From: Campylobacterales bacterium
GTDB lineage: Bacteria; Campylobacterota; Campylobacteria; Campylobacterales; Sulfurimonadaceae
NCBI GenBank assembly: GCA_026390165.1
Contig: JAPLGM010000004.1
Location: forward strand, 62,001 to 126,000
DNA: 64,000 nucleotides
Reading direction: 5' to 3'
Of this stretch, positions 18,367 to 46,115 are shown piece by piece. The position numbers were made by a program, and so were the translations under genes. Under the pieces are notes generated by a model that made no database searches, was not told the origin of the DNA, and saw only the letters and a program-made list of their open reading frames with translations. Position 1 is the stretch's first letter. Each line of letters starts with the position of its first letter.

Positions 18367-18636
18367 ATGTTGCAAGAAGAATTAGTAGGATTGGGAATCG
18401 AAACCTTTAAAATTGCGTTGGTGCTAGCATTACCTTCCCTTTTGGTAGGGATGTTTTTAGGATTAGCGGTGAGTATTTTTCAAGCAACGACCCAAATTAA
18501 TGAAGCAACGCTTAGTTTTATCCCTAAGGTCATCGGCATTATTATCGTTATTGTGTTAACGATGCCATGGATGATGAATGAGATGCAAGATTTCACTATT
18601 CGGATGTTTAATATGATCCCGACGTTTATGCAATAA
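18367..18636 (+). CDS. fliQ: Flagellar biosynthesis protein FliQ
   Basis: FliQ is a small core component of the flagellar type III export gate (FliP-FliQ-FliR). The 89-residue protein has two membrane helices (about 17-40 and 53-75) with the family motif LGLAVSIFQATTQINEATLSFIPK between them. It follows mqnD closely and no other flagellar gene is present; scattered flagellar genes are usual in Campylobacterota. It implies a flagellated organism. Confidence 0.96.
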   Translation: MLQEELVGLGIETFKIALVLALPSLLVGMFLGLAVSIFQATTQINEATLSFIPKVIGIIIVIVLTMPWMMNEMQDFTIRMFNMIPTFMQ

Positions 18637-18645
18637 CGATAATTC

Positions 18646-18687
18646 TTGACCCCGGTCAATCGTTCTTAGTATCACAAACGGTATACT
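18646..18687 (+). promoter_or_regulatory. CRP/FNR-type operator and -10 element before the hemerythrin operon
   Basis: TTGAC-cccg-GTCAA (18646-18659) is a perfect dyad with the spacing of CRP/FNR-family sites. TATACT (18682-18687) is a plausible -10. If the start point is 18694, the dyad is centred at -41.5, the standard class II activator position. No -35 consensus is present, which fits activator dependence. AAGGAG follows before the ATG at 18711. Confidence 0.65.
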
Positions 18688-18710
18688 CTCGAAAAAGAAG
18701 GAGAGATACT

Positions 18711-19145
18711 ATGCTTTTGGAATTTATGAGAGACGATCATCGCGCATGTGATCACCTCTATACGGAGGCTGAGAATGCCCTTGCTGACAAAAAAGTTGAT
18801 GAAGCCAAAAAACTCTTTGGTGCATTTTACCGCGCTACCAACCACCATTTCGATATGGAAGAGAAAGAGCTTTTTATCACGTTTGAAAAACGGACGGGGA
18901 TGATGGGGGGACCTACGCAGATGATGCGTTATGAGCACCAACAATTACGCGCCCTTTTGGAATCAATGCTCCGATCTTTGAATGAAGAGAAATATGATGA
19001 CTTTTTCGGGCAAGGGGAGTCGATGATGATTATGCTTCAGCAGCACAATATGAAAGAGGAGCAAATGCTTTATCCGATGATTGACCGTGCCCTTAGCGGG
19101 GATGCAGAATTAATGATACAAAGATTGAAGGATATGCCCCAATGA
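18711..19145 (+). CDS. Hemerythrin HHE-domain protein
   Basis: A 144-residue four-helix hemerythrin-like protein expected to bind a di-iron centre. Metal-ligand candidates fall in the right order: H10 (DDHRACDHL), HH near 49-50, E54/E57, H75 (YEHQQ) and H112 with following Glu residues (QHNMKEEQMLYP). Such HHE proteins serve in oxygen or NO binding and in iron-sulfur repair. The stop overlaps the next start by 4 bp. The CRP/FNR-type operator and the following DUF2249 gene suggest regulation by oxygen or nitrosative conditions, which is inference from context. Confidence 0.9.
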   Translation: MLLEFMRDDHRACDHLYTEAENALADKKVDEAKKLFGAFYRATNHHFDMEEKELFITFEKRTGMMGGPTQMMRYEHQQLRALLESMLRSLNEEKYDDFFGQGESMMIMLQQHNMKEEQMLYPMIDRALSGDAELMIQRLKDMPQ

Positions 19146-19384
19146 GTACGTTGGATGTACAGGAATTCGATCACCCTGTGCCATTGGAGATGACGATCGA
19201 TGCGTTTAAAAAACTAACGGGGAGTGAAGTCCTTTTAATGATTCACCGTCGTGAGCCGATTCCCCTCTTTGAGATAATTACTAAAAATGGTGGCTTCTAT
19301 CGCTCGATGCAGGTGAATGAAAATCTCTGGCATATTTTTATCACCCGTGATCCCACCCTTGATTTGGGGGAATGCCGTGTTTAA
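19142..19384 (+). CDS. DUF2249-domain protein
   Basis: An 80-residue protein matching the small DUF2249 fold (TusA-like size). It has DHPVPLEMTIDAFKKL at the N-terminus, the central LMIHRREPIPLFEII strand, and an aromatic C-terminal strand. DUF2249 domains frequently sit beside hemerythrins and denitrification or NO-related genes; their biochemical role is not established. It overlaps the hemerythrin gene by 4 bp and the following membrane-protein gene by about 8 bp, so the three are surely one operon. There is no cysteine, so a sulfur-carrier role is unlikely. Confidence 0.85.
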   Translation: MSTLDVQEFDHPVPLEMTIDAFKKLTGSEVLLMIHRREPIPLFEIITKNGGFYRSMQVNENLWHIFITRDPTLDLGECRV

Positions 19385-20645
19385 CGGGCTCTCTCTCGAT
19401 CAAGCACCACCCATTTCAGTAGTGCTTCGCTTTTTTCTTACCCTCCCTGTTTTCGGATTGATCCTCAGCCTTTTTATGATTTTTTTTCCCATCGAAATTC
19501 TCACCCCTAATCATCCCTTTTCCCTTGCTGGTATCCATCTCCTTTTTTTGGGGATGATTAGCATGGGGATGATCGGAGCACTGTTTCAGATGCAAAGTGT
19601 TTTAGGGGGTGCACCCATCCCCTCACCGCTGGGAAACTCTATTATTATTCACACACTTTTAAGCGCGGGGATTCTTGCATTAGCGGGTGCCTTTATTTTG
19701 CAACTCCCCGAACTTTTTATTATTGCGGCTGTCTTGTTGGGGAGTGGCATCGTCTACTTCGCCCAAATTCTCCTCCCCTTACTCCTTGGAAAAATGGGCC
19801 ACGACACTCTCAAAGGGATGCGCTTCGCCCTTTTTTCTCTCCTCATTACCGCGATACTTGGGGTTGTTATGGCAAGCTCTTACGCCAATGGAAATTTTGA
19901 AAATACCCACGCAGCGATCAAAGCCTCTCACTACTCAATAGGTCTTATCGGCTGGGTTGCGGCACTCATCATCTATGTTGCTTTTCAAGTCGTGGAGATG
20001 TTTTATGTGACGACCCCGTATAGCGATTGGTGCAAAAACAATGTCAAACGGATTCTTGGAATCTCCCTTCTTCTCAAAGTGATTTGGCTCTTCACTGCAT
20101 TGCAATTTCCATGGGTGTTTGATATTTTTATTGCATTGTTACTGGTAGGATTTGTGATAACAACGGTGAAACGGTTACGCAGTCGCAAACGACGTGTGAG
20201 TGATGTGAGTATCTGGTTTTGGATGATGGGGATGGGGTTGTTGATGATTTCACTGCTCTCGTATGGTGCTTTGATGGTGCGTCATTATGAGCCCTTAGAA
20301 GCGATGAGTCTGATTGCATTTGCCCTCTTTGCTCTCTCGATCATTTTGGGGATGATGGGGAAAATTGTCCCTTTCTTGGTATGGTTTCACCTCAATGCCG
20401 CAGGATATATGGAGACCCCCATTATGTCGAATATTATCCCCGCTAAACGACTCAAAATGAGCTTTTTGCTTTTTGGATTCACCGCTTTGACGGCTCTTCT
20501 CTCCCCTTTTTTCCCATTGCTTTTAATCGCTTCGGGTCTTAGTGGGGTCGTATTATTTTCGTTATTGCTTTTTAATCTGGTAGCCGCCGCGAAACTCTAT
20601 CGCAACGTTCTTGCGACGGGGACGAGATTTACCTTTGAGCCTTAA
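19377..20645 (+). CDS. Polytopic membrane protein of the hemerythrin operon, NnrS/heme-copper-oxidase-like
   Basis: A protein of about 422 residues with roughly 12 membrane helices. I do not recognise a characterised family with certainty. Conserved-looking histidines within or near helices (GIHLLFLG, IIHTLLS, KASHYSIG, VRHYEP, VWFHLNAAG) recall NnrS-type or heme-copper-oxidase subunit I-like proteins. GTG at 19377 is chosen because GGGGGAATGCC precedes it and it overlaps the DUF2249 stop by 8 bp; an ATG 60 bases upstream would create a long overlap with non-membrane residues. It is translationally coupled to the hemerythrin and DUF2249 genes and probably serves the same stress response. Confidence 0.65.
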   Translation: MFNGLSLDQAPPISVVLRFFLTLPVFGLILSLFMIFFPIEILTPNHPFSLAGIHLLFLGMISMGMIGALFQMQSVLGGAPIPSPLGNSIIIHTLLSAGILALAGAFILQLPELFIIAAVLLGSGIVYFAQILLPLLLGKMGHDTLKGMRFALFSLLITAILGVVMASSYANGNFENTHAAIKASHYSIGLIGWVAALIIYVAFQVVEMFYVTTPYSDWCKNNVKRILGISLLLKVIWLFTALQFPWVFDIFIALLLVGFVITTVKRLRSRKRRVSDVSIWFWMMGMGLLMISLLSYGALMVRHYEPLEAMSLIAFALFALSIILGMMGKIVPFLVWFHLNAAGYMETPIMSNIIPAKRLKMSFLLFGFTALTALLSPFFPLLLIASGLSGVVLFSLLLFNLVAAAKLYRNVLATGTRFTFEP

Positions 20646-45488: not shown

Positions 45489-46115
45489 ATGGCAAGATAT
45501 AGAGGACCCGTAGAAAAAATCGAAAGACGATTTGGTGTTAGCCTTGGATTAAAAGGTGAGCGTCGTTTAGCTGGTAAAAGTGCTCTTGACAAGCGTCCTT
45601 ATGGACCTGGTCAGCACGGTCAGCGTCGTACAAAAATTTCTGAGTACGGTACACAGCTTCGTGAAAAACAAAAAGCGAAGTTCATGTACGGTTTGAGCGA
45701 AAAACAAATGCACTCTTTGTTTGATGAAGCGAAACGTCGTCAAGGCAATACAGGTACAAACTTAATTATGTTACTTGAGCAACGTCTTGACAATGTCGTT
45801 TACCGTATGGGATTTGCAACGACTCGTCGTTTTGCACGTCAATTGGTAAATCACTGTCACGTACTCGTTGATGGTAAGCGTGTTGATATCCCTTCTTACC
45901 GTGTTAAACCGGGACAAAAGATTGAGATTAACGAAAAAAGCAAAAAGAATAACCAAGTTGTTCGTGCAATGGAATTGACTAACCAAACAGGTCTTGCTTC
46001 ATGGGTTGATATTGATCAAGCAAAAGTTTTTGGTATCTTTACACGTCTTCCAGAGCGTGAAGAGGTAGTTATTCCTGTTGAAGAGCGTCTAATCGTTGAG
46101 CTTTACTCGAAATAA
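45489..46115 (+). CDS. rpsD: 30S ribosomal protein S4
   Basis: S4 starts 16S rRNA assembly at the 5' domain and, in E. coli, represses its own alpha operon by binding the leader. The 208-residue protein ends its N-terminal domain with [15 protein letters not shown], and carries the S4 RNA-binding domain ([40 protein letters not shown]). The N-terminal zinc cysteines are absent (C- type). The pseudoknot-like leader before rpmJ makes autoregulation plausible. Confidence 0.98.

Follow-up and report, generated by a model that had tools for sequence, protein, structure and literature searches.

The closest described systems are the Nss regulons of the same phylum, in which NssA, NssB, and NssC of Wolinella succinogenes and NssR of Campylobacter jejuni, all Crp-Fnr proteins with a Dnr-type DNA-binding domain, have nap and nos genes as targets (PMC11539149, PMC6682613). 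The Nss consensus is TTGA-N6-TCAA, and in Nitrosophilus labii such sites begin 48-49 nt ahead of the starts predicted for napA, norE, and nosB (PMC11539149). The same geometry is found in the promoter described here, which lies in a 64,000-nt stretch of DNA (the window) from a genome of the genus Sulfuricurvum and precedes an operon encoding a hemerythrin. A preliminary description of this promoter had connected its dyad with NssR, and the connection is borne out by the shared use of TTGA-N6-TCAA among Nss regulators (PMC11539149), although NssR itself is associated with TTAAC-N4-GTTAA and residues A180/Q181 (PMC1274295), whereas the regulators considered here have P180/E181 or P180/A181. A hemerythrin operon is not named as a target in these papers (PMC11539149, PMC6682613), and the literature on regulation in Sulfuricurvum yielded nothing on point for hemerythrin.

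HcpR provides a second comparison. For HcpR proteins with Pro or Ser180 and, by implication, Glu181, Rodionov and colleagues predicted the site TTGACnnnnGTCAA, and hemerythrin-like genes are among the predicted targets (PMC1274295); for the HcpR1 branch of the delta-proteobacteria, the predicted site is wyTTGACnnnnGTCAArw. The genome analyzed here encodes a P180/E181 regulator, with the recognition helix PETLSR, beside hcp, and a site is present before hcp itself, but this site, TTGATTCGTATCAA, differs from the one predicted for HcpR, and a phmmer comparison with the PDB gave no close match to a solved HcpR. Both phmmer lists contain DNR of Pseudomonas aeruginosa (3dkw), and no other CRP/FNR structure in them is annotated as a denitrification regulator; the similarity of DNR is low (E 6e-9 and 3e-6), and other proteins outscore it for the hcp-linked regulator. 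The operator class, its position, and most of the regulon are already known, and what is added here is the hemerythrin operon as a strictly conserved member. Judged from sequence, the operon is very probably part of the known response to nitrate and nitric oxide, not a system of a new type.

The hemerythrin promoter and its counterparts in the genome

The operator is the perfect dyad TTGAC-CCCG-GTCAA (core TTGA-N6-TCAA; TTGACCCCGGTCAA) at 18646-18659 on the forward strand, beginning 10 nt past the stop codon of fliQ (18367-18636), with its centre between 18652 and 18653. The -10 box TATACT (18682-18687) follows exactly 22 nt 3' of the dyad, and the ribosome-binding site of the hemerythrin gene, AGAAGGAGAG, occupies 18696-18705, both on the same strand. 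Setting the last T of the -10 box as -7 puts the predicted transcription start at 18694 and the dyad centre at -41.5, as the preliminary description had calculated; the start is uncertain by about 2 nt in either direction, because sigma-70 starts in C. jejuni lie 4-8 nt from the -10 (PMC3847290). No TTGACA-like -35 was seen in the window in front of TATACT. This absence had been read as a sign of dependence on an activator, an argument that we dropped, since sigma-70 promoters of C. jejuni also generally lack a -35 box (PMC3847290) and its absence in Campylobacterota is therefore uninformative on this point. The dyad also lies within a longer inverted repeat (18632-18667), which was set aside because the two centres do not coincide.

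The 2.64-Mb genome was scanned for the motif with the reversed pattern as a control. The perfect dyad TTGAC-N4-GTCAA occurs in five copies, against none for the reversed pattern, which places the dyad and its accompanying TATACT, both confirmed by direct reading, beyond chance. Four of the five copies lie 5' of genes, and all four are followed after exactly 22 nt by a -10 hexamer, so that the full composite (dyad, 22 nt, TANNNT) is found four times with zero mismatches and not once in the control; with up to two mismatches allowed, the counts fall to chance level (63 versus 60). Besides the hemerythrin operon, these composites precede napA1 and napA2 (both TATAAT) and moaA (TACAAT); NCBIfam identifies the gene after the first site as NapA and that after the third as MoaA. 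The fifth perfect dyad (C28:24804) is located within the 3' end of a sensor-kinase gene, has no -10, and was taken as chance. The core TTGAN6TCAA alone occurs at chance frequency within the window, and a further candidate there, TTGATATTGATCAA at 46006, sits in apparent coding sequence.

Imperfect copies at the 22-nt spacing include TTGACCTGCATCAA, in front of a cytochrome c553 gene, and TTGACCCATATCAA, in front of a gene from an unnamed family with a cytochrome c gene after it. The hcp promoter, in which TTGATTCGTATCAA is separated by 22 nt from TAGACT, holds the only TTGAT-N4-ATCAA composite in the genome. The unnamed-family gene (L145:2114-3210) encodes 203 aa without a Pfam match. The genome also contains two separate nap loci (G000 C8 and C27), and an Rrf2-family (NsrR/IscR-like) regulator gene and a single-domain globin gene in divergent orientation (L009:174-1213), a pair that could represent a second NO-response circuit.

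Conservation of the site within the family and the genus

The genome scan called for in the preliminary description, extended here to the family, found the motif enriched before respiratory and NO-related genes. The perfect composite is present in 53 of 81 family genomes, and the control is nearly empty. At the 81 distinct composite sites, the next gene is most often napA (22) or nosZ (16), followed by cytochrome c553 (7), nrdD (5), globin (3), and NnrS (2); hcp, moaA, and hemerythrin or DUF2249-like genes are single cases, and 19 sites have no assigned next gene, one of them being the hemerythrin promoter of G031, where the hemerythrin reading frame had been overlooked. Elsewhere, in G079 (L319:3061-5534), a double dyad, of which one dyad has a -10 at class II spacing, precedes a cluster with another oxidase-like membrane protein (409 aa); the cluster adjoins a Crp-Fnr gene and a nitrite/sulfite-reductase-like gene.

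The hemerythrin promoter was compared among 27 sequences, namely that of the window and those of 26 orthologues from elsewhere in the genus. All 27 carry TTGA-N6-TCAA exactly 22 nt before the -10, an arrangement never obtained in shuffles, with TTGA at -48 to -45 and TCAA at -38 to -35 invariant. A single promoter has TAGACT as its -10; the other 26 have TATACT. In contrast, conservation in the 22-nt spacer falls to 0.41 bits per position, and the ATG lies at varying distances from the -10. The upstream sequences also differ between genomes, so the conserved site is not merely part of a recently shared block. The fifth base of the half-sites varies (T/G in 13, T/A in 11, C/A in 2, and C/G in 1), with TTGAT in 24 of the 27 whereas nap promoters prefer TTGAC. 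The conserved core is thus TTGA-N6-TCAA, and the TTGAC/GTCAA symmetry is peculiar to the window copy, the single C/G case. Among more distant hemerythrin operons, 14 of 53 have the full arrangement, against a shuffle mean of 0.002.

Strong support for a class II operator of the CRP/FNR type with a connection to nitrogen-oxide genes comes from the enrichment of the motif ahead of nap, nos, moaA, nrdD, globin, hcp, and NnrS genes, from its conservation in all 27 promoters, and from the linkage of regulator and operon in other genera, as described below.

Candidate regulators and alternative readings

A search with HTH_Crp_2 recovered three Crp-Fnr genes in the genome. One adjoins hcp; its product contains a single cysteine, and its residues 80-82 are AEM, resembling RAEM68V as deduced from a primer (PMC12750200), which contains Met68, the heme-binding position of HcpR; Met stands at that position in 20 of 43 relatives. 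The other two lie 5' of the two nap operons, a position that agrees with that of the NssA-like gene of N. labii. Both have the recognition helix PATLSR, and each is followed by a gene for a PilJ-domain membrane protein (PF13675) with weak similarity to NarQ. These loci (L009:18598-19988 and L011:9458-11001) are unusual for the P-A in the recognition helix.

In a sample of the genus, 17 of 17 genomes with the hemerythrin gene (here hmr) encode a PETLSR-type regulator (THETLSR in one), and two further genomes have a PETLSR regulator without hmr. Outside the genus, six genomes have a PETLSR Crp-Fnr gene next to the hmr-DUF2249-oxidase-like genes and transcribed away from them, with one TTGAC-N4-RTCAA dyad in the interval between regulator and hmr; at the 22-nt spacing these genomes have a weak -10 (AAAAAT), and the dyad might be autoregulatory. 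In three further genomes, a different hemerythrin gene lies opposite an orthologue of the hcp-linked regulator, and the two share a TTGAT-N4-ATCAA-type dyad. In L316 and L318, a relative of the 203-aa gene mentioned above follows such a second hemerythrin gene, divergent from the hcp-linked-regulator orthologues; in L317, the second hemerythrin gene is likewise divergent from the orthologue, and the 203-aa relative is absent. Most Sulfuricurvum genomes also hold another PETLSR Crp-Fnr gene, in a fixed cluster together with ferritin-like and predicted solute-binding-type genes (L209, L214, L215, L218, L225, L227, L228); this one was not found in the window's genome.

The regulator tree places the genus regulators in several clades of one larger group, and regulator orthology is therefore not one to one. 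In the window's genome the clade is the hcp-linked one, in most others it is another, and in G079 a third; no clade in the tree co-occurs one to one with hmr. The regulator of the hemerythrin operon is probably a Crp-Fnr protein of the DNR/HcpR/Nss type, because a gene of this kind is adjacent to the operon in six related genomes and beside hcp here; its signal could be NO, nitrate, or N2O. The presence of TTGA-N6-TCAA sites before nap, nos, and related operons agrees with an Nss-type regulon, while the PETLSR helix and the hcp linkage agree with HcpR.

We consider it likely that the dyad is a class II activator site at which such a protein switches on the operon together with nitrate-respiration genes. 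A Crp-Fnr dimer would bind TTGA-N6-TCAA centred at -41.5 and contact RNA polymerase beside the -10, and the hemerythrin-DUF2249-heme-copper-oxidase-like operon, both nap operons, moaA, and the cytochrome c553 gene would be activated together during nitrate respiration or upon NO build-up. The hcp-adjacent PETLSR regulator would be the most likely binder. Cross-regulation by the two nap-adjacent PATLSR regulators is plausible, since the window copy has nap-type TTGAC/GTCAA half-sites, and cross-talk between Crp-Fnr regulators may be possible more generally, given that the fifth base is the main difference between their sites. Against the activator proposal stand the preference for TTGAT in hmr promoters and TTGAC in nap promoters, so that the two sets of promoters may answer to different proteins, the lack of a regulator clade matching hmr one to one, and the weak -10 in the six genomes with adjacent genes.

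The half-sites also bear on the best of the alternatives, in which the nap-adjacent regulators are the main controllers and the signal is nitrate rather than NO. The window copy carries the half-sites typical of nap promoters, genes for such regulators stand directly 5' of both nap sites, and the PF13675 companion with its weak NarQ similarity would suit a nitrate signal. However, the PATLSR clade is missing from 8 of the 17 genus genomes that retain the hmr site, which weakens its candidacy as a necessary regulator of hmr, and 24 of the 27 hmr promoters, with TTGAT, are unlike nap sites; we regard this alternative as possible, if rather unlikely.

Repression of hmr by a roadblock over the promoter is improbable. 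The site does overlap the polymerase-binding region, in Nitrosophilus a Crp-Fnr gene has been described as negatively related to nosZ (PMC11539149), and the promoter geometry is less clear in the six divergent-pair genomes, but none of the 27 promoters departs from the exact -41.5 spacing, although spacer sequence and ATG distance vary, a constancy that fits a class II activator that must touch polymerase.

The preliminary description had proposed control by an oxygen- or NO-responsive regulator, of which the association with nitrogen-oxide genes is supported by the motif enrichment, while FNR-type oxygen sensing finds no support in the cysteines. Hemerythrins often have oxygen-related functions, TTGAT-N4-ATCAA-like forms in relatives fit the FNR consensus, and PETLSR provides FNR-type E-S-R contacts, all of which would suit an FNR site through which the operon answers oxygen limitation by way of a 4Fe-4S cluster. 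Yet the HTH_Crp_2 matches amount to just three Crp-Fnr proteins in the genome, and none of the three has an FNR-type N-terminal cysteine triplet plus central cysteine: the hcp-adjacent protein has its single cysteine, and the nap-adjacent clade has conserved cysteines near positions 11, 83, 88, and 135, which is not the FNR spacing. This makes the FNR reading most improbable. Finally, that the dyad is a chance palindrome after fliQ, with hmr expressed by fliQ read-through or from a constitutive promoter, is hardly credible, for even though the dyad starts so close to the fliQ stop, no convincing terminator was found between them, and the core motif alone is at chance frequency in the window, all 27 promoters keep the site although the sequences upstream of it are of several kinds, and its exact spacing is common to nap and moaA.

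Products and possible role of the operon

All three genes of the operon lie on the forward strand. The first (18711-19145) encodes a single-domain hemerythrin of 144 aa (PF01814, E 9.7e-18), whose relatives at 73-93% identity occur in MAGs mostly named Sulfuricurvum. The second (19142-19384) overlaps both neighbours and encodes a DUF2249 protein of 80 aa (PF10006, E 1.9e-11), a family linked to hemerythrins, heme-copper oxidases, and denitrification (PMC11218638). The third (19377-20645) encodes a membrane protein of 422 aa and probably starts at the GTG at 19377 rather than at 19317 as in the ORF list, given the conserved start VFNGLSLDQAPP in homologues.

The window's copy of the third protein has no match in Pfam or NCBIfam, and a few homologues give weak matches to the NnrS and COX1 profiles. 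Its AlphaFold model (pLDDT 93.4) has the 12-helix fold of heme-copper-oxidase subunit I, with VIA-align Z scores of 33.8 to cbb3 CcoN and 30-32 to the NO reductase NorB at about 12% identity; it shares its fold with NnrS and the cbb3/NOR heme-copper oxidases, and in two relatives an operator of the type described here precedes a true NnrS gene. Among 34 homologues, H54, H185, and H338 are invariant and H92 is nearly so; the first three would correspond to helices 2, 6, and 10 of CcoN. The six conserved histidine metal ligands were not found in these homologues, and the histidine pair for metal site B is absent from the alignment. Because only four histidines are conserved, the third-gene product is not a canonical oxidase or NO reductase. 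Homologues of this gene follow hemerythrin genes from Campylobacterota to Gammaproteobacteria.

The source of NO in this organism bears on the role of the operon. There was no match to NrfA in the genome, and its single PF00115 protein, presumably CcoN, suggests that there is no NorB; an internal NO source is accordingly not evident, which counts against the proposed trigger. Together with the two nap loci, this suggests that nitrate is reduced to nitrite only, and NO would come from side reactions or neighbours. We tentatively propose that the hemerythrin-DUF2249-degenerate heme-copper-oxidase operon is an NO-handling module, perhaps with a protective role, and a standard part switched on by the Nss/DNR/HcpR-type regulon even in nitrate reducers apparently without NO reductase and NrfA. 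If so, the module would combine a di-iron NO or O2 carrier with a heme membrane protein that lacks the usual binuclear-site ligands. The retention of the exact class II geometry across the genus while the regulator clades differ makes this promoter a case for studying regulon rewiring. A hitherto uncharacterised but widespread operon is tied at the level of individual bases to the nitrogen-oxide regulon, with the promoter, the site, and candidate regulators ready to hand.
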